A stretch of DNA of 38,360 nt from Candidatus Levyibacteriota bacterium (GTDB lineage: Bacteria > Patescibacteriota > Microgenomatia > Levybacterales > UBA12049), in contig DAIDHK010000011.1 of assembly GCA_027459725.1 (NCBI GenBank), forward strand, positions 1 to 38,360. Direction: 5' to 3'. This document shows positions 3,365 through 37,776 of this stretch, one piece after another. Numbering within the stretch: position 1 is the first letter of the stretch; each line of letters begins with the position of its first letter. The position numbers and the translations under genes are program-made. The notes beneath the pieces were generated by a model. The model saw nothing but the letters and a program-made list of their open reading frames with translations, had not been told where the DNA came from and made no database searches.

Positions 3365-3511
3365 TAGGCCATGGTAGAGTGGTGTGCAAAACTCGTAAAG
3401 GATTGATTTGACAATAAAAAGTAATTGACACCATTGGAACATTTATAAATATTTTATGAACTCTACTAAAATAATCACATACATCCTATAGCATAATTGG
3501 GTATATTTTGC

Positions 3512-3517
3512 TATACT
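3512..3517 (+). promoter_or_regulatory. -10 box of the 3530 gene
   Basis: TATACT, 12 nt before the ATG. No convincing -35 at 17 nt; a TTGACA at 3425-3430 is too far away to pair with it. Confidence 0.45.
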
Positions 3518-3529
3518 TTCACTTTCCTT

Positions 3530-5683
3530 ATGAAAGTAGAAGCTGCACGAACCTATTTTAAAGACGTTGGGAAAAGCCTTAAGTCATTCTCAGAGCCCAA
3601 TAGTAGAAGTACAACAGTTGTAGAACGAAGAGAAGTAATGGAAAATTTTCGTAGAACCCCTGAGTATCAAGATGCTTTTATAACACTACGGACAGATTCT
3701 CATATAAGAAGAATGTTAGGTAAAGAATTACCTGAGCGTTCACATGCAACCTATAGATTACTATCTGATACGCTAGAACCTGTGGTTGTATTTGGAGATG
3801 CAGCTACATTAGATGAAGGGAAGAATTTGACTATGTGTGGTACGCGCATGGTTAACAAATACATAGAACCATTGTCACTTAGATTATCTAACGGACAGAA
3901 TAAAAAAGTGGTACGGCTGATAGAGAAGACAAATGCTGGAATAGACATATTAAACGCATTGGATACTTTAGCTAGAACTAAAGAAGGAAATAAAAAAGAT
4001 TTTACCACAGCAACTGGTATGGCTTTTGATTATTTTAAAATTGCAGTGAAGCTTATGACACATGGAGTATATGCTAAATTACAAGAGATATTTGAGACAG
4101 TAGATAAAAGTGAAAATGTTGGATTAGCAATACAGACTAAAGAGCATTCAACTACAGATTTAGTAAATATGCATGTTCAGGGTATGACATTAGGTAAATT
4201 ATTTACTATGGATTTTACATCTGACAATTTAGTAAAAGCATATTCTTTCTTAACAAGTACCAGTGTAAATGGATTTAATCTGGGAGAAGAGCAGAATCCC
4301 TTACCCGTGGATCCCGTCACTCCTGTAGATCAAGAATATCCTCTATTTTATCAATCAACGTTACGTCTCTTGCCACAGTATGTTGCGAGTTTGTTACAAA
4401 TGCGACAAAGTGATATTAAGACTCAAGCAAAGTTGTTAAATATACCAGATGATGTTACTAACTATGCCGAGGAGATGTATACTCATCTTTTTAAACTTCG
4501 TTCAAAGATAGTAGATCTCATTTTTGATCCTAGATCTACGTCATTTCCTGCTTTAAGAGATATACTTATGCAAAATTTACAAAAGAATAGCGAATTCAGA
4601 GACGCATCTTTGATTGTGTTAAATCCTGGCTTTAAATATGTATTCTCATTTTTAAGGCAGGCAAAAACGTTAGCTCAAAAAGATACTAGTGGGAACGAGG
4701 CATTTTATCAGTTCTTAGTGGACTCTACATATAGATATATTGAAGGAATGCCTGATGATATCTTATTAACTCGAGAGGATAGTTTTAGTTTCTTTGAAAA
4801 TTTAAGCAAGGAAAAAGCACTATGTGGAGAGGCGCAAAGTCTGGATGTTGGACAATTCACAAAGTTATACCATGCAATTAGAGGTAAAGAATCAAGAGAG
4901 ATATATATTATTGGAAGTCAATTATTAGGCAATATCGATTTAAACGGCTTGTTAAAACCTTCGAGAATTATGGTTAGATTTCCTCAAGATAAAGTAAAAA
5001 TTATTGGCGTTGATTTTGTCTATATTAACGAAGAAGGAGAACATCAAGAGATTAGCGTTGAAGTAGATTTAAAGAAATCAAAAATTGATTGGAATTTTGT
5101 AGAGGATTTTAATGATCCGGATATGAGTGCACTCTCAACATCTATTTATTCGGCGATATTATCCTCGCTATCGTTTATAGATGTAGTGACAACTGAGGGA
5201 TATTCTAAAAAAATTGAAGATGCTAAGCAAAGGAATAGGACGGTAAGGCCATCAAATACATCATCAAAAGTCGAATCTATCATTATTAACGGACTTCCTG
5301 AAGAAACTCATACTGAAAAGGTGAAAACCAGACCCTCTATTTCTAGTCCACGAGAAGTTCAAGCGATTAATATCCTGTTAGAAGAAACACAGAGAAGTAA
5401 TGGTACTATTATTCTAGAGGGTAACCCAATAATACAACAGGGACTTGATACGTTATCAAGTGTAGATGCTCGAAGTATACAAGCATCTCTAAAATCGTAT
5501 AATGAACAAGGGAAAGGAAGTATTAAGCGACTCCACTTTCCAGCCCCTGATGGAACCATATTATATTCTAGAAGAGTTGGACATAATCGCGTGCTTTTAA
5601 GAAAAAATAATGCCGGAGATTTTGAAGTATTAGCCATTGGGAGACGAGCTGACATTTATCGAAAATACAGAATAGAGACATAA
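3530..5683 (+). CDS. Unknown large protein with RelE-like C-terminus
   Basis: I do not recognise this 717-residue protein as a whole. It has no signal peptide or membrane span and is mixed helical and charged through about residue 600, with a low-complexity Ser/Thr/Lys linker near 570-620. The last 65 residues (IKRLHFPAPDGTILYSRRVG, then VLLRKN and VLAIGRRADIYRKY) follow the RelE/ParE toxin pattern of a basic beta sheet ending in iG.R.diY. That resemblance is by eye. The ATG at 3530 is chosen over an upstream TTG because TATACT (3512-3517) would place the transcript start near 3524. No antitoxin-like partner is adjacent. It stands alone between divergent secE and galU and may be an accessory gene. 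Confidence 0.75.
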   Translation: MKVEAARTYFKDVGKSLKSFSEPNSRSTTVVERREVMENFRRTPEYQDAFITLRTDSHIRRMLGKELPERSHATYRLLSDTLEPVVVFGDAATLDEGKNLTMCGTRMVNKYIEPLSLRLSNGQNKKVVRLIEKTNAGIDILNALDTLARTKEGNKKDFTTATGMAFDYFKIAVKLMTHGVYAKLQEIFETVDKSENVGLAIQTKEHSTTDLVNMHVQGMTLGKLFTMDFTSDNLVKAYSFLTSTSVNGFNLGEEQNPLPVDPVTPVDQEYPLFYQSTLRLLPQYVASLLQMRQSDIKTQAKLLNIPDDVTNYAEEMYTHLFKLRSKIVDLIFDPRSTSFPALRDILMQNLQKNSEFRDASLIVLNPGFKYVFSFLRQAKTLAQKDTSGNEAFYQFLVDSTYRYIEGMPDDILLTREDSFSFFENLSKEKALCGEAQSLDVGQFTKLYHAIRGKESREIYIIGSQLLGNIDLNGLLKPSRIMVRFPQDKVKIIGVDFVYINEEGEHQEISVEVDLKKSKIDWNFVEDFNDPDMSALSTSIYSAILSSLSFIDVVTTEGYSKKIEDAKQRNRTVRPSNTSSKVESIIINGLPEETHTEKVKTRPSISSPREVQAINILLEETQRSNGTIILEGNPIIQQGLDTLSSVDARSIQASLKSYNEQGKGSIKRLHFPAPDGTILYSRRVGHNRVLLRKNNAGDFEVLAIGRRADIYRKYRIET

Positions 5684-5882
5684 CTATTGTTATAGTGATA
5701 TTTATGTATTCTATCAAAGCAGTTCTCAAAAAAATTAATCCACAACCGGATAACTATATCTCCGGGAAGTTTCAAGTATTTTACTTAAGCTTGGTGAAGA
5801 TTATAAATATATTTAAAATTTTTCTTACAGAACTTAGGGTTTGTTACTCTTACAAAACTTTTACTCTACCATTGTAACGATG

Positions 5883-5891
5883 TGTTATAAT
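5883..5891 (+). promoter_or_regulatory. Extended -10 promoter of galU
   Basis: TGT followed by TATAAT (5886-5891), an extended -10 element that can work with a poor -35. The ATG lies 19 nt downstream. The rest of 5684-5910 holds no gene I can support. Confidence 0.6.
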
Positions 5892-5910
5892 CCTCATATA
5901 TTTAAAGAAT

Positions 5911-6804
5911 ATGCAGAAAGTTCGTAAAGCAGTCATTCCGGCAGCAGGATTTGGGACACGTTTACTCCCGCAGACTAAGGCTATGCCTAAGGAAATGCTG
6001 CCGGTAGTTGATAAGCCAATTATTCAATATGTAGTGGAAGAATTGGTTGAGGCAGGGATTCAGGATATTATCATTGTTACTGGTTACCACAAGCGTACTA
6101 TTGAAGATCACTTCGATCGTCCTTCTACGGAATTGATAGATAATTTGAAGATGGGTGGAGCAAAAAAGTTACCTCTTCTTCAGAGTGTGGAAAAGATTTC
6201 TGACATGGCTAATTTCATTTATGTTAGACAGAAAGGTCCTTATGGCAATGGTACACCCTTATTAAATGTTCGTCATCTGATAGGTGATGAACCATTTATT
6301 TACACTTGGAGTGATGATTTCATCAAAGCTTCTCCCAAGTCTCGTTTTCAGCAGTTGCTGGAGATTTATGAGGAATTTGGATGGCCGGTACTGGCAAGTT
6401 TTCGAGCAAAGAAAGCCGAAGACTATGATAGATATGGATTTGCTGGGGGTAAGATTTTACGGGATGGTTTGATAGACGTGGAAACTATCATTGAAAAGCC
6501 TGGCAAGAACAAAGCACCTTCTGATTTGGCTAATGTGAGTGGTTTTATCTTTAATCCTGATATTTTTGATTATTTAGATCACGCATATAAGAATCTTAAA
6601 GAGGGGGAGGAGTTATATTATAATGATGCTTTGAAGTTAATGTTGCATGATAAAAAACATGTTTTGGCTGCTGAGATCAAAGATGGTAAGTACTATGATA
6701 CAGGTAATAAGCTTGAGTATCTAAAGACAGTAGTCGAGTTTGCGTTGGCCAATCCTGATGTCAAAGAGCCTTTTGCTAAATTCCTCAAAGAGCTAAAATT
6801 TTAG
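5911..6804 (+). CDS. galU: UTP-glucose-1-phosphate uridylyltransferase
   Basis: Makes UDP-glucose from UTP and glucose-1-phosphate in the cytoplasm, for glycolipid, polysaccharide or wall-polymer synthesis. The nucleotide-binding signature AGFGTRLLPQTKAMPKEML (about residues 12-30) is clear, with DKPIIQYVVEE after it, GPYGNGTPLL near 110 and WSDD (about 133-136) as the likely metal/sugar site. The 297 residues match bacterial GalU. It is followed 64 nt later by a PAP2 phosphatase with its own promoter, so the two form a loose envelope pair rather than a tight operon. Confidence 0.93.
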   Translation: MQKVRKAVIPAAGFGTRLLPQTKAMPKEMLPVVDKPIIQYVVEELVEAGIQDIIIVTGYHKRTIEDHFDRPSTELIDNLKMGGAKKLPLLQSVEKISDMANFIYVRQKGPYGNGTPLLNVRHLIGDEPFIYTWSDDFIKASPKSRFQQLLEIYEEFGWPVLASFRAKKAEDYDRYGFAGGKILRDGLIDVETIIEKPGKNKAPSDLANVSGFIFNPDIFDYLDHAYKNLKEGEELYYNDALKLMLHDKKHVLAAEIKDGKYYDTGNKLEYLKTVVEFALANPDVKEPFAKFLKELKF

Positions 6805-6835
6805 ATTTTCAAAATACTTTTATCAGAGCCATTTT

Positions 6836-6865
6836 TTGTGTTAGTATATTTAAGCTGTTTATAAT
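6836..6865 (+). promoter_or_regulatory. Promoter of PAP2 gene, near-leaderless
   Basis: TTGTGT, 18 nt, TATAAT (6860-6865), only 3 nt before the ATG at 6869. Transcription would start at or just inside the start codon. Confidence 0.6.
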
Positions 6866-6868
6866 GTT

Positions 6869-7507
6869 ATGTGGAAGAAGAAGAACTTATTTTTAGCCGG
6901 TTCACTTTTATTTATTATTTTTGTTTTCTTCTCGTATTTAGTACACAAAAATCTATTTACCCAATTTGATTTTAACAGTACAGTTCACTTACAAGATGAT
7001 ATATCTAGACATTTTGATCTGCCTTTTTCTTGGTTGAGCATTATCGGTAACGTTGAGGTGATGAGCGTTGTGCTAGGCTTGATATTAATTATTTACTGGC
7101 TGTTTAATAAGAGAATAAAGGCCTTATTGATTTTTCTTTTTTTTGCCGGAATGCATTTACTGGAATTGTTCGGTAAGACTTTTGTACATCATCCACCACC
7201 ACCACATTTCATGTTACGCACACAATATCCCGTGAACTTTCCGCAGTTTTATGTCAGCACACAGAATTCTTATCCATCCGGTCATGCTGCCAGAGCCTTG
7301 TTTGTAACAGTAATTTTAGCCTTGATAGTAGGAAAAAATAAAAAGCTGAACAGACAGATGAAATGGCTAGCCTATGGGTGTTTGATGATTTATGATGGTT
7401 TTTTGCTGATAAGTCGAGTCTATCTAGGAGAACACTGGAGTTCAGACGTGATAGGAGGCTCGATGCTTGGAGCTAGCTTCGCACTTGTCTCTGCTATCTT
7501 ACTTTAG
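6869..7507 (+). CDS. PAP2-family membrane phosphatase
   Basis: A membrane acid phosphatase of the PAP2 superfamily, which dephosphorylates lipids such as undecaprenyl pyrophosphate or phosphatidylglycerophosphate. The 212 residues contain about five or six membrane spans. Motif 2 is YPSGHAARA (about 136-144) and motif 3 is SRVYLGEHWSSDVIGG (about 181-196), giving both catalytic histidines and the aspartate. Motif 1, normally K-x6-RP, reads KTFVHHPPPP (about 106-115), so the arginine is replaced by proline. The substrate cannot be told from sequence; undecaprenyl pyrophosphate recycling would suit the wall genes in this window. Confidence 0.85.
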   Translation: MWKKKNLFLAGSLLFIIFVFFSYLVHKNLFTQFDFNSTVHLQDDISRHFDLPFSWLSIIGNVEVMSVVLGLILIIYWLFNKRIKALLIFLFFAGMHLLELFGKTFVHHPPPPHFMLRTQYPVNFPQFYVSTQNSYPSGHAARALFVTVILALIVGKNKKLNRQMKWLAYGCLMIYDGFLLISRVYLGEHWSSDVIGGSMLGASFALVSAILL

Positions 7508-7528
7508 CCTCAATTAGGCCCATAATAC

Positions 7529-7557
7529 TTGACATGGTCAACCTGGTATGTTATAGT
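7529..7557 (+). promoter_or_regulatory. Strong promoter of candidate RNA
   Basis: TTGACA (7529-7534), 17 nt, TATAGT (7552-7557): the consensus -35 with optimal spacing. It points into a region without a supported gene and predicts a start near 7564. Confidence 0.8.
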
Positions 7558-7563
7558 AATTTT

Positions 7564-7791
7564 CTCTGTATGTGTTGTTCGTATCAGGTTGCTAAATGCC
7601 CCTGATACACAAGACGACCATACCGATATTTACTTATCGGGGAGGTGTGGCTTTGAAATAATAATATATTTCAATTTTTCTGCCTTCCCGTTAGTCTTTA
7701 TGAGACGAACTGAAGGTAGGAAGCTGTTTATGAGTACAAAGGAAGGGCAGGACTTTTGTACTAAAAACGTAAACAGCTTTCTGCCTTTTTT
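7564..7791 (+). ncRNA. Candidate structured small RNA, ~228 nt
   Basis: The interval between a consensus promoter and a terminator folds into successive hairpins: GTATCAGG/CCTGATAC (7581-7608); CCATACC/GGTGTGG enclosing CGATA/TATCG (7618-7650); GAAATA/TATTTC (7655-7672); CTGCCTTC/GAAGGTAG with inner GTCT/AGAC (7680-7719); and AAGCTGTTTA/TAAACAGCTT with inner GTACAAA/TTTGTAC (7721-7779). The last runs through CTGCC into six Ts (7786-7791). GGTAG (7715-7719) can pair either with CTGCC at 7680 or with CTGCC at 7781, so hairpins four and five compete. I see no tmRNA tag, T-arm, RNase P or SRP signature. The next plus-strand gene is over 1 kb away, so it is not a leader. Confidence 0.65.
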
Positions 7792-7801
7792 GGTTTATTT
7801 A

Positions 7802-8620
7802 TCATCTTTTCTTCTTTAAGTGATAATACTTAATCTTTACATATTCCAGGCCATATAAGAGGATAAGCGAGGAATAATAAATCCAGAGCAATAATGCAAT
7901 TAGCGAGGAAGTAGTACCATATTTACTGCTGGAAGCACTAAGTGCGATCATATACGACAGTATAATCTTGCCAAATGTAAAGAGAATTGAGCTGATAACA
8001 GCTCCCTGTAGCGCTAAATTATATGAAAGTTTTACGCGTGATAACAACATATACAAAAAAGGTAAAATCAAAGCAAAAATAATTAACGGGATAATAATAT
8101 CCAGACTGTACAGCAGTAGTGACATATTCTTAAAAACATATTGAGACATGTAGGAAATCACTGTGGAGAAGACTAATGAGACAAGTAAGGCTAAGGCGAT
8201 AATAAATAAAACAATAAAAGTCATAATTCGATTGATTAGCATAGATTTAATCCCGGAAGGTTGATCTTTTATATGCAAAATTACATTAAAAGCTTCCTCA
8301 AGTTGCGAAAAAATACTGCTCGCAGAGAATAGTAATAACACAATGCCGATTGTTAGAGATATTAAATTGCTGTCAGTACTATTTCCTTGCTGGATAAGAC
8401 TTTTAACCGTTTGTGCAACTGCCGGATTGGTAAAGTGACTGATTTGTAAAAGAATTTGTCTAGTGCTGGCTTGAGTGCCAAAGAAAAAACCTGCGACAGA
8501 TATCATGATTAATATCAGAGGACCTAATGAGAATAATGAGTAGTAAGAAATTGCTGCTGCATACAGGTTTACTTTATCTTTTTGCCAGTCTAAAAATGCG
8601 TTAATGATGTCTGTAAACAT
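7802..8620 (-). CDS. YihY/BrkB-family membrane protein
   Basis: A 272-residue protein with six predicted membrane helices of the YihY (UPF0761, once called ribonuclease BN) family. The signature is at the N-terminus, AAAISYYSLFSLGPLILIM (about 21-39), followed by the family polar turns and a late GKIILSYMIALSASSSKYGT segment ending in SLIALLLWIYYSS. The molecular role is not established; roles in envelope or transport have been suggested. It lies 35 nt after the small coiled-coil membrane gene at 8656-8904, probably one leftward transcript. It ends in TGA immediately followed by TAA. Confidence 0.85.
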   Translation of the reverse strand: MFTDIINAFLDWQKDKVNLYAAAISYYSLFSLGPLILIMISVAGFFFGTQASTRQILLQISHFTNPAVAQTVKSLIQQGNSTDSNLISLTIGIVLLLFSASSIFSQLEEAFNVILHIKDQPSGIKSMLINRIMTFIVLFIIALALLVSLVFSTVISYMSQYVFKNMSLLLYSLDIIIPLIIFALILPFLYMLLSRVKLSYNLALQGAVISSILFTFGKIILSYMIALSASSSKYGTTSSLIALLLWIYYSSLILLYGLEYVKIKYYHLKKKR

Positions 8621-8655
8621 ACTGACTTTTTTGGGATGGTTGTATTTTCTTCTAT

Positions 8656-8904
8656 TTAGCCGTCGGTGTGAGTGAAACGATTTAGTAAGGACTGAAAAAA
8701 AGAGCTACCCGCCTGTGCTGCTGTATCTACCGGATGAGAGAGTGCTTCTTGTACTTCTCCAAGCTGATGACTTATATGCTCGCTAATCTGGGATATTTTT
8801 TGATAAAGCATATATAAGATTACGGCAATACCTATCCAGAAAATAATCTGCAGTCCCATATAAATAATGGCTATCACATAAAATGTTTGTTGTAATTGCA
8901 CCAT
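8656..8904 (-). CDS. Small membrane protein with coiled tail
   Basis: An 82-residue protein: short polar start, one membrane span (about 8-40), then a heptad-like stretch QKISQISEHISHQLGEVQEA (about 44-63) and a polar C-terminus. It resembles the DUF948 style of small membrane-anchored coiled coils, but I cannot name it. A longer frame to 9000 exists; the ATG at 8904 is preferred because the longer form would overlap the start of the divergent glycosyltransferase gene at 8980. It precedes the YihY gene. Confidence 0.6.
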   Translation of the reverse strand: MVQLQQTFYVIAIIYMGLQIIFWIGIAVILYMLYQKISQISEHISHQLGEVQEALSHPVDTAAQAGSSFFQSLLNRFTHTDG

Positions 8905-8979
8905 AATTATTAGTTTAGAGGTAGAATATAAGATAGGATAGTTGAGTGAGTAAGAAAGAGGTGAGAGATTGGGCAAATT

Positions 8980-10503
8980 ATGAATGTTTTTAAACAACAC
9001 TTGCGCAAATTCCTTTTATGGTATTTGATAGTGGTATTTTTTTTGTTGAGGTTATGGAATTTAACGTTATTGCCTATTTTTAACGATGAAGCTATCTATA
9101 TTCATTGGGGAATTAAAGAACTGCAAAGTGGTAACTTATACTATTCACTTTATGATAGTAAGCAGCCACTATTGATGTGGTTTTTTGCCATTTTTAGTAC
9201 TGTTTCTAGAGATCCCTTGTGGGGGGCCAGATTGGTATCTGTTTTATTCGGATTAGTGGGGACGTTGGGCTTGTTTACCTTAGGAAAAAAGTTTTTTTCA
9301 CGAACTATCGGTTTGTGGGCGGTAGGATTATATATGGTTATACCTATCTTTTCTTTTTTTGATAGACAGGCTTTGATGGAAACAGCGGTTGGGGTTGTGG
9401 GGGTCTGGTTTGTGTATTTCTCACTGAGTTATTTACAAAAACCATCAACAAAGCACGCTGTAATGTTAGGAATATTGGGGGGACTGGGTGAGTTTATTAA
9501 AACAAGCAGTCTTTTGTTTGTGGTTGCTTTTATAATGGTACTGCTATGGAAAAGAAAAATCTGGAGAAATATAAGAGATATAAGTTATTTTGTTCTCAGT
9601 TTTGTTATAGTTGATAGTCTGCTTTTCATTAATCCCATGTTTTGGCAGACTTTATCTTCCAATAGTCGATATTCTTTAACTATAGATGAGATTATGCGTT
9701 TTCCAATTGCTGTCTGGTATAACAATATTGAAGCAAACGGCGAGATTATTTTGTTTTATCTGACACCCCTGGTAGTAGTAGGTATGTTTTGGGGAATGAG
9801 AAATATATGGTTAAGTAAAGCACAGATAAAAAAACTATTTTTATGGTTAGTTTTTCTCCCCATTATTCTGGAAACTTTCTTAAGCAAAAGCAGCACTCAG
9901 AGGTACCTGGTATCCTTTTTGCCCTTGCTGACTATTTGTACAGCTGTGGGTATAGATAATTTCTTGAATTTAGAGTGCGGTAGACTTAGTTGCTGGGGTA
10001 AAAAAGCGGTGGTGATTATGGGAATATCTTTGTCAACTGTGATAACCAGCTTACAGATAAGTAATCCCGTAAGCTATTTCCAGTTATATTCTCATCTTAC
10101 TAGAATGTCAGATATTGGAGGATATTTATCTACACAAAATAGTGGTGAAGGAATAGCCAGAGTTGTAAGTTTTTTGAAAAATAAAAGTTCTATGCAGCCG
10201 ATAATTGTGGCTACTACGGTTAATACCGGAAATCCGGAAGATGCACTCTATGTCTATTTATCAGGAGACAAGAATATTAATTTTATTTATTTGGATAATA
10301 GGTTTTTAGGTATCCAATTGGCCACTATTGACTGTCTGTCTTCATCTATACCATTATACTTTATTAGTCGGGATGAACAGCAGGGTGGTATGAATCAGTA
10401 TTTACAACAGATTGAGTCGATACATAATCCCTATGGGGAGAATAGAATTGGTATTTATACTTTAAAGCAAAAGTGTAGCGGAAAAACAATCAGGGTTGAT
10501 TAA
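8980..10503 (+). CDS. PMT/ArnT-type membrane glycosyltransferase
   Basis: A 507-residue integral membrane glycosyltransferase of the GT-C fold (PMT_2/GT83-like), which transfers sugars from a polyprenyl-phosphate carrier outside the membrane. The N-terminal span is followed by LPIFNDEAIYIHWG (about 31-44), holding the acidic DEA loop typical of the family; about ten hydrophobic segments follow, with a second loop near FFDRQALMETAV (about 126-137). The C-terminal 150 residues are soluble. Acceptor and sugar are unknown. It is divergent from the 8656-8904 gene and converges on the YggT gene. Confidence 0.8.
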   Translation: MNVFKQHLRKFLLWYLIVVFFLLRLWNLTLLPIFNDEAIYIHWGIKELQSGNLYYSLYDSKQPLLMWFFAIFSTVSRDPLWGARLVSVLFGLVGTLGLFTLGKKFFSRTIGLWAVGLYMVIPIFSFFDRQALMETAVGVVGVWFVYFSLSYLQKPSTKHAVMLGILGGLGEFIKTSSLLFVVAFIMVLLWKRKIWRNIRDISYFVLSFVIVDSLLFINPMFWQTLSSNSRYSLTIDEIMRFPIAVWYNNIEANGEIILFYLTPLVVVGMFWGMRNIWLSKAQIKKLFLWLVFLPIILETFLSKSSTQRYLVSFLPLLTICTAVGIDNFLNLECGRLSCWGKKAVVIMGISLSTVITSLQISNPVSYFQLYSHLTRMSDIGGYLSTQNSGEGIARVVSFLKNKSSMQPIIVATTVNTGNPEDALYVYLSGDKNINFIYLDNRFLGIQLATIDCLSSSIPLYFISRDEQQGGMNQYLQQIESIHNPYGENRIGIYTLKQKCSGKTIRVD

Positions 10504-10519
10504 AAATAGATATAAGATC

Positions 10520-10954
10520 TCAGGGGTTATCTACATTCTCAGCTACCTCAGAAGGGGAAGCAGGTTTGATCAGTTGAAGGAGATAAACCAATCCATAGGC
10601 AATTAATAGATAGACAATGGCTGCAATAATAGTCGACCACTCAAATACTGATTTACCTACCACAGTAATAGATAAAATACCTGAAAAAGGGAGTGCCAGA
10701 GGATTGGAAACACCGTAAACAAAGGATGTGAAGCCATTATATGGATTAGCTCCTAGAACTTTTAGCACGACCCGAAAAGCCAAAAGGACTTCTATTAATC
10801 CTAAAATATACCATATTACCTGATAGAAGCGGAAAATAGCTTTTTTCTTGCTATATACACGTTGAGCAGATTCTGTTCTGACTGCCGGCATGCTCTGAGA
10901 TGTCTTTACTACCTGTACTGGTTGTTCACTAACTGTAGATACTGTCTGTTCCAT
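10520..10954 (-). CDS. YggT-family membrane protein
   Basis: A 144-residue protein: a polar Ser/Gln/Val-rich head (about 1-45), then two or three membrane spans with the YggT-like core LLAFRVVLKVLGANPYNGF (about 60-78) and NPLALPF, the proline-rich turn of the family. Function is unclear; YggT proteins have been tied to osmotic tolerance and to division-site factors. An ATG 30 nt further up exists, but the -10 (TATACT, plus 10974-10979) sits 19 nt before the chosen ATG and would leave no room for it. It ends 17 nt from the converging glycosyltransferase gene. Confidence 0.8.
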   Translation of the reverse strand: MEQTVSTVSEQPVQVVKTSQSMPAVRTESAQRVYSKKKAIFRFYQVIWYILGLIEVLLAFRVVLKVLGANPYNGFTSFVYGVSNPLALPFSGILSITVVGKSVFEWSTIIAAIVYLLIAYGLVYLLQLIKPASPSEVAENVDNP

Positions 10955-11049
10955 AAGAATAATGTATGTACGTAGTATAAACAACGCTCACATATTTAAT
11001 GCTAAGAAAAAGTAAGAAAGCGGTAACAAAGATAGTTTAGATTGTTGAA

Positions 11050-12198
11050 CTATCTAAACATAAATCCCAGTAGGTCTGACATTTGTCTGAGAGTAGAACT
11101 ATGATGAGTCTGTTGCATGATCTCCAGTGCCTTAGGAGTATTCATATCATCCTCCAAGGCATGACTAAATTCCTTCATTTTCTGGTTAGTATCATTACTG
11201 GATTTCAGTTTTGTTGATAAAGTTCTATGTAATAACAAAACTTTTTCTTTTGCTTCTTCCAATTCGGATTCCATAAATTCCCAGGGAGTACGATAATGGT
11301 GAGAGAGTAGGACATATCGAATAGTATCTGCATCGTAAGTTTTTAATAAATCCGAGATTAGAATCAAGTTCCCTAATGACTTTGACATTTTTTCACCTTG
11401 GTACATAACCATGGCTGTATGCATCCAGAAATCGACAAATGGATCTTTGCCGGTATAGGCTTCTGATTGTGCACGTTCACTTTCGTGATGAGGGAAGATG
11501 AGATCTCGTCCGCCTCCATGAATAGTAATCTGAGCCCCTAAATATTGATTAATCATAGCAGAGCATTCTATATGCCAACCGGGTCGGCCCTTTATTTCCA
11601 TTGGTCCCTCCCATACGGGCTCGTCTGGTCTAGCTGCCTGCCAAAGAATAAAATCCAATGGATTTTTTTTGTTCTTATCATCAGGATCAGCGCCTCGTTC
11701 TCTGGAAAGCTGTATCATTTGTTTCTCTGAATAATGAGAGAGATCACCATAAGAGGAAAACTCACTCACATCAAAATAGATATTACTACCGGAAGAGTAG
11801 GCGTAACCCTCTTTTAATAATTTACTAACCATTTCTACGATTTTATCCATAGAATCAGTCGCTTTTACATACCAAGTTGGAGGAAGGACATTTAAATTTT
11901 TCATATCAGTGAGGTACTTTTTAGTCCAGGATTGTCCGAGAGATTTCCAGTCCGTATTTTGTTCTTTTGCCTTGCGTAAAATATCATCATCTATATCTGT
12001 CACATTTTGCAGATACTTAACGGTATGTTGCTTATAGCGTAAAAAGCGCACTAACACATCAAAGAAAACATAGGTAAAAGCATGGCCTAGGTGAGTTGTA
12101 TCATACGGAGTTATACCACAGACATAGATACTAATATCCTTAACCCCTACAGGTGTAAGTTCTTTTATCTTTTGAGATTTTGAATCGTAAAGAAGCAT
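11050..12198 (-). CDS. Cysteinyl-tRNA synthetase/MshC-like ligase
   Basis: A class I adenylating enzyme that activates cysteine. Catalytic features: HLGH (residues 36-39) and KMSKS (270-274). Zinc ligands are expected at C27, C212, H237 and E241, all present. At 382 residues it lacks most of the C-terminal anticodon region of normal CysRS (about 460). GITPYDTTHLGHA, RPGWHIECSA and DDMNTPKAL are closer to MshC, the cysteine:glucosaminyl-inositol ligase of mycothiol synthesis, and to short CysS-annotated proteins of Chloroflexi, than to E. coli CysS. It may be this lineage's tRNA synthetase or a paralog acting on a small molecule. A TTG nine bases upstream is a less likely start. Confidence 0.85.
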   Translation of the reverse strand: MLLYDSKSQKIKELTPVGVKDISIYVCGITPYDTTHLGHAFTYVFFDVLVRFLRYKQHTVKYLQNVTDIDDDILRKAKEQNTDWKSLGQSWTKKYLTDMKNLNVLPPTWYVKATDSMDKIVEMVSKLLKEGYAYSSGSNIYFDVSEFSSYGDLSHYSEKQMIQLSRERGADPDDKNKKNPLDFILWQAARPDEPVWEGPMEIKGRPGWHIECSAMINQYLGAQITIHGGGRDLIFPHHESERAQSEAYTGKDPFVDFWMHTAMVMYQGEKMSKSLGNLILISDLLKTYDADTIRYVLLSHHYRTPWEFMESELEEAKEKVLLLHRTLSTKLKSSNDTNQKMKEFSHALEDDMNTPKALEIMQQTHHSSTLRQMSDLLGFMFR

Positions 12199-12253
12199 AG
12201 CGTTCAACTATTTTAACTGAGTTTAAAGCAAAAGAAAAGTATGAAGAGTAGAT

Positions 12254-13162
12254 TTATACTATATGGAAATATGTCTTTAAGTTGGAAAAATCACTCTTAT
12301 CCCGAATAAAGTATGTATATTTTTTCCTATCCTGCAGTTTAAAAGTAATTTTTTGTTGCCATCCGGAAGCTGATACAGCAGTAACTGTGGTTAAAGAGAT
12401 AGAATAGTTAGCCGGGTTGGATTGAAGAATTTGCAACAGTGATTGGGAATTTAACATTTCTTGCAATTTGTTTTGTATATCCTTCCTGGCAAATATCAGA
12501 TTGGTCATATTGATATCAGTTTGATTAATAATTTGTCCAGCTCCTGCTAAAGGTACGACGATGGCGTGAATATGAGTTTGTGTTACAAGTAGAGCGTTTT
12601 CGGGATGGAAATCCTTACCTTTGCCTAAGAATGATACACCCTGTATGATTCCTTCACTGTGTTGTATTCCGGCAGCTGTAACTTGAACAGTTTCATTCTG
12701 GTCAACTGCTATGCCGATGTTGGATTTCACGCCTGTTTGGGCATAGAGGTTAATTGAGTTTACTCGTTTAACCAAGTCGACTCTAAGGAATGCTATTAAA
12801 ACCATAAAGCTGATAAATATAAGAGCAATCCACCACGGGAGACCTTTAGTAACGTAATATATGAGTACTGAGGTCACAATAATGATCAGTGGAATTAAAG
12901 TGAAGAGAGAAGAATATGAGTTTGTCTGACTGCTTTTTAAGACAATGTTACTGATTAAATCCGACCTGGTTGTACCCCGTGAATGAAGAGCATCAGGAAT
13001 CTCACTAAGGGGATTTGGGTTATTTGTTTGGAGGTGCAAAAAACTTTCATCAATGTCCTGTTGATCCCAATTATTTTGCAAAAGAGATTGTACTATAGCC
13101 TCTTTGGATTGTCCCTGCTGTAACTGATTTTGAATATAGGCCTCTAATTCCTGAGTTACCAT
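12254..13162 (-). CDS. Unknown membrane protein, helical N-domain
   Basis: A 302-residue protein I cannot name. Residues 1-45 have the pattern LEAYIQNQLQQGQSKEAIVQ then NNWDQQDI, a two-helix module seen at the front of many CPR membrane proteins. Two membrane spans follow (about 85-130), then a soluble domain of about 170 residues, beta-rich, with LLVTQTHIHAIVVPL near 192, reminiscent of PH-like membrane-associated domains. The ATG at 13162 lies exactly 6 nt from a -10 box, favouring it over a start 12 codons upstream. It is 55 nt from the CysRS-like gene in the same direction. Confidence 0.65.
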   Translation of the reverse strand: MVTQELEAYIQNQLQQGQSKEAIVQSLLQNNWDQQDIDESFLHLQTNNPNPLSEIPDALHSRGTTRSDLISNIVLKSSQTNSYSSLFTLIPLIIIVTSVLIYYVTKGLPWWIALIFISFMVLIAFLRVDLVKRVNSINLYAQTGVKSNIGIAVDQNETVQVTAAGIQHSEGIIQGVSFLGKGKDFHPENALLVTQTHIHAIVVPLAGAGQIINQTDINMTNLIFARKDIQNKLQEMLNSQSLLQILQSNPANYSISLTTVTAVSASGWQQKITFKLQDRKKYTYFIRDKSDFSNLKTYFHIV

Positions 13163-13168
13163 ATAGTT

Positions 13169-13198
13169 ATAATAAGTTAGAATATTTAGGGAATACAA
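13169..13198 (-). promoter_or_regulatory. Leaderless promoter of the 13162 gene
   Basis: Minus strand TTGTAT, 18 nt, TATTAT, then 6 nt to the ATG. The expected first transcribed base is the A of the start codon. Confidence 0.6.
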
Positions 13199-13431
13199 TA
13201 CCTATGCAGCAAAAGCCAGCGCAAGCATTCTGGTTTGTTCATAATTAATTATCCAGCCGTTATGTAACACACTTCTATATAGTATACTTTCGGATAGATT
13301 TCTAAATCTGGTACTTTACGGCGCAAGATTCCACTCTATGTGTTTTCAAAATCGATTCTACTTCAGATTCTTGACCGTGTACGACTTCTACTGCCACTAA
13401 TATCTAACCTTGTTCAATGCGTGATTTATAT

Positions 13432-13872
13432 TCATGGAGCACTATTATCAGGAATGTCTTTATCTACCAGCCAGCCTACAATAACTCCCGCTACGTCTCG
13501 AGTTGCAGTTGCTGCAACAATAGTTGCAATCAGACCAGCGACTAAACCAATACCGGGTATCGCTATAACTGAAAGACCTGCCAGTAATACGCCGCTGCCT
13601 ACAACGCCTTCTAAGTTCGTTTCTCATAAAGCGGGGAGAGAAGGGGTTATTTCTCCAGCTCTGTCTCCTCTCCAGTACAGTGGAAAGATCTTAGCAGAAG
13701 GGAAAGGTTGAGATAAGTCTGTTGCGGCTAACATGCGGGATTTGATCGCACCCGGATTATTTCTGACATCTTTATCGTTAAATGCGGTTGAGGAATAAGT
13801 TACTATATCTTTATTTCTGAACACTCTTTTTATGGCACTATCACTTAAAAACGATAATTGCATCCAATACAT
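13432..13872 (-). pseudogene. Broken glycine-rich membrane protein gene
   Basis: The minus-strand frame from the ATG at 13872 runs 82 codons to a TGA at 13624-13626, then continues open in the same frame for 63 codons to a TGA at 13432. The part after the first stop reads EGVVGSGVLLAGLSVIAIPG, then GLVAGLIATIVAA, and GVIVGWLVDKDIPD. This is the glycine-zipper and -GIPE-like ending of general-stress (YflT/DUF1269-type) membrane proteins. TGA is a normal stop elsewhere here, so a nonsense mutation is the simplest reading. The rest of the interval 13199-13964 shows no other supported gene. Confidence 0.55.
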
Positions 13873-13964
13873 GTCCTAATTTATATCCTCTGAAATTAGG
13901 GTTTTGGGAATATAAAGATTTTTCTGATAAGGGTATACACAGATAATTGCAAAATAGACATTGG

Positions 13965-19031: not shown

Positions 19032-19201
19032 CAAAAAAACCATCCGGATTAATTGGATGGTTTAATTGAATTTCAATAATAACAATGCCCTTTGAGCCGA
19101 AATAGTTGTTTTTTTCTCTAAGATAGTAATTAGGAAAGGCTGTCTGATCAGCCGCAGCTTTTCAGAACTGACCTTGTCTTTTCTCGCTAAGCGAGAAAAT
19201 A
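19032..19201 (-). ncRNA. Candidate small RNA, ~170 nt
   Basis: Starts about 7 nt past a consensus minus-strand promoter and ends at a terminator. The 5' end forms TTTTCTCGC-TTA-GCGAGAAAA (plus 19179-19199), a 9-bp hairpin. A GGCTG/CAGCC hairpin follows (plus 19139-19154), then an A-rich single-stranded stretch, then the terminator. No start codon with a sensible frame, and the next minus-strand gene (rpmG) lies over 700 nt on, past the terminator and a tRNA cluster on the other strand. No 6S, SRP, tmRNA or RNase P hallmark recognised. Confidence 0.6.
19033..19062 (-). terminator. Terminator of candidate small RNA
   Basis: Minus strand AACCATCC (plus 19055-19062), a 9-nt loop, GGATGGTT (plus 19038-19045), then a run of Us from the A-run at 19033-19039. 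A classic intrinsic terminator. Confidence 0.85.
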
Positions 19202-19207
19202 CCTCAG

Positions 19208-19236
19208 AGTGTAGAAGTAGAGAAAAAATATGTCAA
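19208..19236 (-). promoter_or_regulatory. Promoter of candidate small RNA
   Basis: Minus strand TTGACA (plus 19231-19236), 17 nt, TACACT (plus 19208-19213). One of the best promoter matches in the window. The stretch 19237-19376 up to the M50 gene holds nothing else I can support. Confidence 0.8.
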
Positions 19237-19376
19237 CTATTTCCAGGTTTCAAAGAGCGAAATCAGTATATCGGGTAAATATATAAATTTCAAGGGTTAT
19301 AGTCACTGCATTTGAAGCAAAAAATCAGTAATTACACAAGTCTTACATAACAAGATATAAATAATGTAGGTAAGAA

Positions 19377-37747: not shown

Positions 37748-37776
37748 TTGACCAAACTTGATTTAGAGTTTATAAT
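37748..37776 (+). promoter_or_regulatory. rRNA promoter
   Basis: TTGACC, 17 nt, TATAAT (37771-37776). Near-consensus, 24 nt after the racemase stop, predicted start about 37783. Confidence 0.85.

Follow-up and report, generated by a model that had tools for sequence, protein, structure and literature searches.

The most structured 228 nt of the window (the whole 38,360-nt stretch of Candidatus Levyibacteriota DNA analyzed here) are delimited by a promoter and a terminator on the same strand, and what these enclose is probably a stand-alone, single-copy, intrinsically terminated sRNA gene, recently made in or acquired by this lineage and acting in trans. The element is real as a sequence feature and sits between two convergent genes, PAP2 on the plus strand and brkB on the minus strand, the locus being organized as follows:

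6869-7507, plus strand: upstream gene, PAP2 phosphatase, present in 76 of 100 relatives
7529-7557, plus strand: sigma-70-type promoter TTGACA-17-TATAGT, its -10 preceded by TG, consensus match 11/12
7529-7819, plus strand: 96-codon open frame, judged not to be a gene
7564-7791, plus strand: predicted structured RNA of about 228 nt, its start placed by promoter spacing
7568-7623, plus strand: hairpin H1, two stacked stems (z -5.2, P 0.002)
7624-7639, plus strand: hairpin H2 (z -4.1, for 7623-7640)
7640-7689, plus strand: hairpin H3 (z -3.2), whose 3' arm CTGCCTTCCC can alternatively pair with the 5' arm of the terminator
7677-7723, plus strand: alternative antiterminator-like hairpin around H4, exclusive with H3 and the terminator (z -4.6)
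7690-7710, plus strand: small hairpin H4 (z -1.7, P 0.08, not significant alone)
7712-7791, plus strand: intrinsic terminator with a very long imperfect stem (7712-7788) and T6 at 7786-7791 (z -8.1)
7802-8620, minus strand: convergent gene brkB, encoding a BrkB/YihY family membrane protein that few relatives have

The Locus and Its Signals

The intergenic region between PAP2 and brkB measures 294 nt at 37.8% GC, most other intergenic regions having 17-37%, which is as expected for a structured RNA gene in an AT-rich genome, where structured RNAs tend toward longer and GC-richer intergenic regions (PMC8632094). The highest GC content of the intergenic regions listed, 39.7%, belongs to another stretch, 13199-13964, 766 nt without a clear gene. 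The gene order 3' of PAP2 varies among the relatives examined, which makes this a variable site, and brkB itself was found in 2 of 100 relatives and in 13 of 380 genomes of the phylum.

The promoter, with its -35 TTGACA at 7529-7534, a spacer of 17 nt and its -10 TATAGT at 7552-7557, ranks at the top of the 39 promoter-like sites within 3400-13400, so the consensus promoter proposed in the first-pass annotation holds as the best match in its 10 kb. Over both strands of the whole window, three sites reach 11/12, while shuffles yield 1-2 (per 77 kb); another of the three is TTGACC-17-TATAAT at 37748, in front of the 16S rRNA gene. The promoter of the candidate RNA therefore matches the consensus as well as that of the window's 16S rRNA does, and the presence of an equally good site before the latter suggests that this promoter type is plausibly in use in the host. 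By consensus match only, then, the element has a promoter of its own on the right strand.

At its 3' end, the element carries an intrinsic terminator, the long stem followed by six Ts having been correctly recognized in the earlier annotation: the stem at 7713-7730/7770-7787 is the only inverted repeat of at least 18 nt (within 120 nt) in the window, and the hairpin is the window's longest. Read on the minus strand, this hairpin lacks a T run and so does not resemble a terminator that could serve brkB. The same annotation had seen no downstream gene on the strand of the RNA, and indeed brkB runs opposite, the first plus-strand gene 3' of the candidate RNA beginning at 8980.

Folding and Coding Capacity

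Positions 7564-7791 have a folding energy of -89.6 kcal/mol, whereas dinucleotide shuffles average -50.6 +/- 4.4 (z -8.8, 0/200 as good), and after GC correction no other 228-nt stretch on either strand of the 38 kb ranks as high, in keeping with the structured RNA gene, equipped with its own promoter and intrinsic terminator, that had been proposed. Folding remains at z -5.6 when the terminator part is removed (7564-7705). The minus strand of the same stretch folds more weakly (-64.7), and this gap of about 25 kcal/mol is large, yet several other windows equal it. The five hairpins that had been counted before the terminator have to be reduced to four, as the minimum-energy fold consists of H1-H4 plus the terminator, with H4 at P 0.08.

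The absence of a supported gene could be upheld, as the 96-codon frame has a codon score of -0.14, which is under the 1st percentile (-0.09) of same-length windows in the window's genes and falls in the range of wrong frames, and it has neither a Pfam family nor, at the sensitivity of the scan, a relative in GTDB species genomes. A protein gene at 7529-7819 is thus rejected, and the element is non-coding by these measures. A second, much shorter frame of 12 codons including the stop (M C C S Y Q V A K C P stop; 7570-7605, plus strand), with three Cys codons, starts with an ATG at 7570, about 7 nt past the predicted RNA start, and has no clear ribosome-binding site.

Search for Relatives

The Rfam search of the element gave no family above the gathering cut-off, only spurious sub-threshold matches, in agreement with the earlier remark that no known RNA class was recognizable; the best of these matches, let-7 (30.2 bits vs. 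a cut-off of 53.5), is a long-hairpin artefact. Elsewhere in the window, a ribosomal protein L10 leader (RF00557) is found at 1162-1280 on the minus strand, its 47.7 bits being just over the cut-off of 44.

Both blastn against 100 relatives and a single-sequence covariance model run against those and 73 family genomes, the congener G001 included, returned this copy only. Being built from a single sequence, the covariance model has little power and may overlook a strongly diverged copy; blastn of the same kind with the window's other RNA (see below), however, does detect the copy in the congener, at 78%, so the absence of the element is informative and not just a matter of insensitivity. Phage and plasmid records gave chance matches only, and no hit came from scanning GTDB and IMG/VR with exact patterns. 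As no homologue with compensatory changes was found in relatives, the family, phages or plasmids, no stem has support from covariation, the role of the RNA is one that we infer, and its function is not readable from conservation. Within its own genome, the element is single-copy (a second model match is the same hairpin read backwards), and the several copies that would mark a MITE- or REP-type repeat were not found.

Several more specific kinships were considered and rejected. A conserved 3' neighbor of PAP2 is contradicted by the downstream regions of the relatives' PAP2 loci, which upon reading proved unrelated to the element and gave no significant match to the single-sequence model, and an element travelling with brkB by its absence from 12 brkB loci of other genomes. 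A divergent 6S or SRP RNA, or any housekeeping RNA, is unlikely given the absence from the congener, and a relation to the conserved RNA at 19033-19258 comes to a model score of 13.6 bits, on the terminator hairpin only.

A Second Unannotated RNA Gene

19258-19033, minus strand: unannotated RNA gene of about 226 nt with promoter and terminator, beside tRNA-Thr/Tyr/Thr
L051:1503-1724, L052:1501-1733 and L054-L082: its homologues

The window's other RNA is, in our view, the more interesting of the two. Preceded by the promoter TTGAAA-17-TATACT at 19293, it is shaped as a long closing rod, a junction and two apical hairpins, and it is present in the congener (78%) and in a further relative (G013); a model built from these three sequences recovers it from 51 of 155 relatives, as a single copy in nearly all of them and often adjoining tRNA genes. 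In an alignment of 30 sequences, 91% of the cells pair and 58 of 67 pairs have changed on both sides, with a covariation score of 0.58 vs. 0.23 for shuffles and at most 0.12 for slid controls. Fitting the alignment to the model favors structure; even so, the covariation is convincing in view of the slid controls and of how large the effect is.

No Rfam family matches this RNA either, and neither 6S (RF00013) nor the small bacterial SRP RNA (RF00169) was detected by Rfam in 21 genomes (G000, to which the window belongs, and 20 relatives, the congener included), tmRNA reaching the cut-off in 16 of those same genomes; the RNA at 19258-19033 may be the group's missing 6S-type or other housekeeping RNA. 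A second, deeply conserved unannotated RNA in the same window implies that Rfam-negative RNA genes are probably common in this group. In several relatives, the tRNA-linked RNA lies on the PAP2 contig, sometimes directly downstream (PAP2 loci, e.g., G036:C4:58306-59192 and G003:C18:3796-5087), whereas about 11.5 kb separate the two in this window, so the region between them has probably been rearranged.

Interpretation and Alternatives

The transcription of the element, the ends of its RNA and its function are inferred as follows. RNA polymerase would start near 7564 from the near-consensus promoter and stop at the T6 past the long hairpin near 7791, leaving a stable non-coding RNA of about 228 nt. 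Since its strand carries nothing downstream, this RNA would most likely work in trans, through base-pairing or by binding a protein, and not in cis. While still nascent, the RNA may pass through a predicted second fold at 7677-7723, delaying formation of the terminator, and the same terminator hairpin probably also serves the PAP2 operon, no terminator of its own having been seen further upstream. Bacterial sRNAs are hard to trace across species, and some of them evolve fast (PMC8557413), with which an RNA of one lineage fits. As an sRNA candidate, the locus is clean and open to testing, and since the congener lacks it, it exemplifies how fast sRNAs turn over; no paper on the regulatory RNAs of these ultrasmall bacteria was found in the narrow range of open-access literature searched.

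A strong hairpin between convergent genes could, on the other hand, be a terminator only, and the most serious competitor of the sRNA gene, although we consider it unlikely, is that the element forms the structured 3' UTR of the PAP2 operon together with its terminator, and might then yield a 3'UTR-derived RNA, with the promoter match being due to chance. The element does begin 22 nt past the PAP2 stop codon, the scan shows no terminator from that stop codon to 7712, and a strong terminator is to be expected between convergent genes. Shuffled sequence, however, contains just 1-2 promoter matches of this quality per 77 kb, which puts the chance of one in the right place and on the right strand at about 0.001; H1-H3 remain significant when the terminator is left out, and the PAP2 loci read in relatives do not have such a 3' end.

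We regard as rather improbable a leader of the attenuator or riboswitch type, whether still intact or surviving as a remnant, in which H1/H3 and the antiterminator at 7677-7723 would compete in setting read-through, today yielding antisense RNA to brkB. The pairing that such a leader would employ is available, as CTGCCTTC in 7677-7690 (the 3' arm of H3) can pair with GAAGGTAG in 7712-7723, enclosing H4 and using the 5' arm of the terminator, so that GAAGGTAGGAA (7712-7722) has two possible partners, the terminator's 3' arm or CTGCCTTC in the 3' arm of H3. As the folded prefix grows, the structure changes to the alternative and then returns: prefixes up to 7713 give H1-H2-H3, those ending at about 7720-7773 have the antiterminator-like hairpin as minimum-energy structure, and H1-H2-H3-H4 plus the terminator form once the 3' arm of the latter is present. 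There is, moreover, a 10-nt exact repeat, TTTCTGCCTT, at 7677 and 7778 (rarer than chance when compared with shuffles, P 0.002), the upstream instance being a copy of the terminator's 3' arm, and the 12-codon frame with its three Cys codons is placed at the extreme 5' end. Against these points, with the terminator fixed and the upstream sequence shuffled, 42% of the shuffles pair at least as many arm bases upstream and in 68% the energy gain is no smaller, the purine-rich arm readily finding partners. The strand also has no gene before 8980, Rfam yields neither a leader nor a riboswitch match, and the short frame has no clear ribosome-binding site.

The mutually exclusive, switch-like design suggested by the first-pass annotation consequently survives in part: the alternative pairing is possible and locally significant (z -4.6), while its use as a switch is no more than possible, one control speaking for design (repeat P 0.002) and another, in which the shuffled upstream sequences compete equally well, not doing so, and, there being no gene downstream, a switch here could act only on antisense RNA to brkB. 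That this is a new RNA specific to the lineage, with a co-transcriptional antiterminator gating the terminator so that one promoter would give either the 228-nt sRNA or a long antisense transcript over brkB, depending on a signal sensed at H1-H3, is a very doubtful proposition. Equally hard to credit is a non-functional or mobile-type palindromic element (MITE-/REP-like), or a junction remaining from a rearrangement that introduced brkB, which would suit the rarity of brkB and the differing gene order 3' of PAP2 in the relatives examined but not the one copy in the genome, the promoter and terminator in register or the lack of visible terminal direct repeats.

Comparison with Known Systems

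The sRNA gene that we favor shares its length range and strong promoter with 6S RNA, SRP RNA and tmRNA (the tmRNA of this genome being located elsewhere, at G000:C1:275238), from which it differs by the lack of an Rfam match, by being a chain of hairpins and not one rod, and by its absence even from the congener. With attenuators and riboswitch leaders, it has in common the alternative hairpin taking the terminator's 5' arm, the long terminator and the T6, whereas it has no downstream gene on its strand and no known aptamer, and in one of two controls its competing fold does no better than shuffled sequence. Among lineage-specific trans-acting sRNAs, its stems would be unusually long, and no homologues of it were found, but it resembles them in its size, its stand-alone position between two genes, its several hairpins and its Rho-independent terminator.
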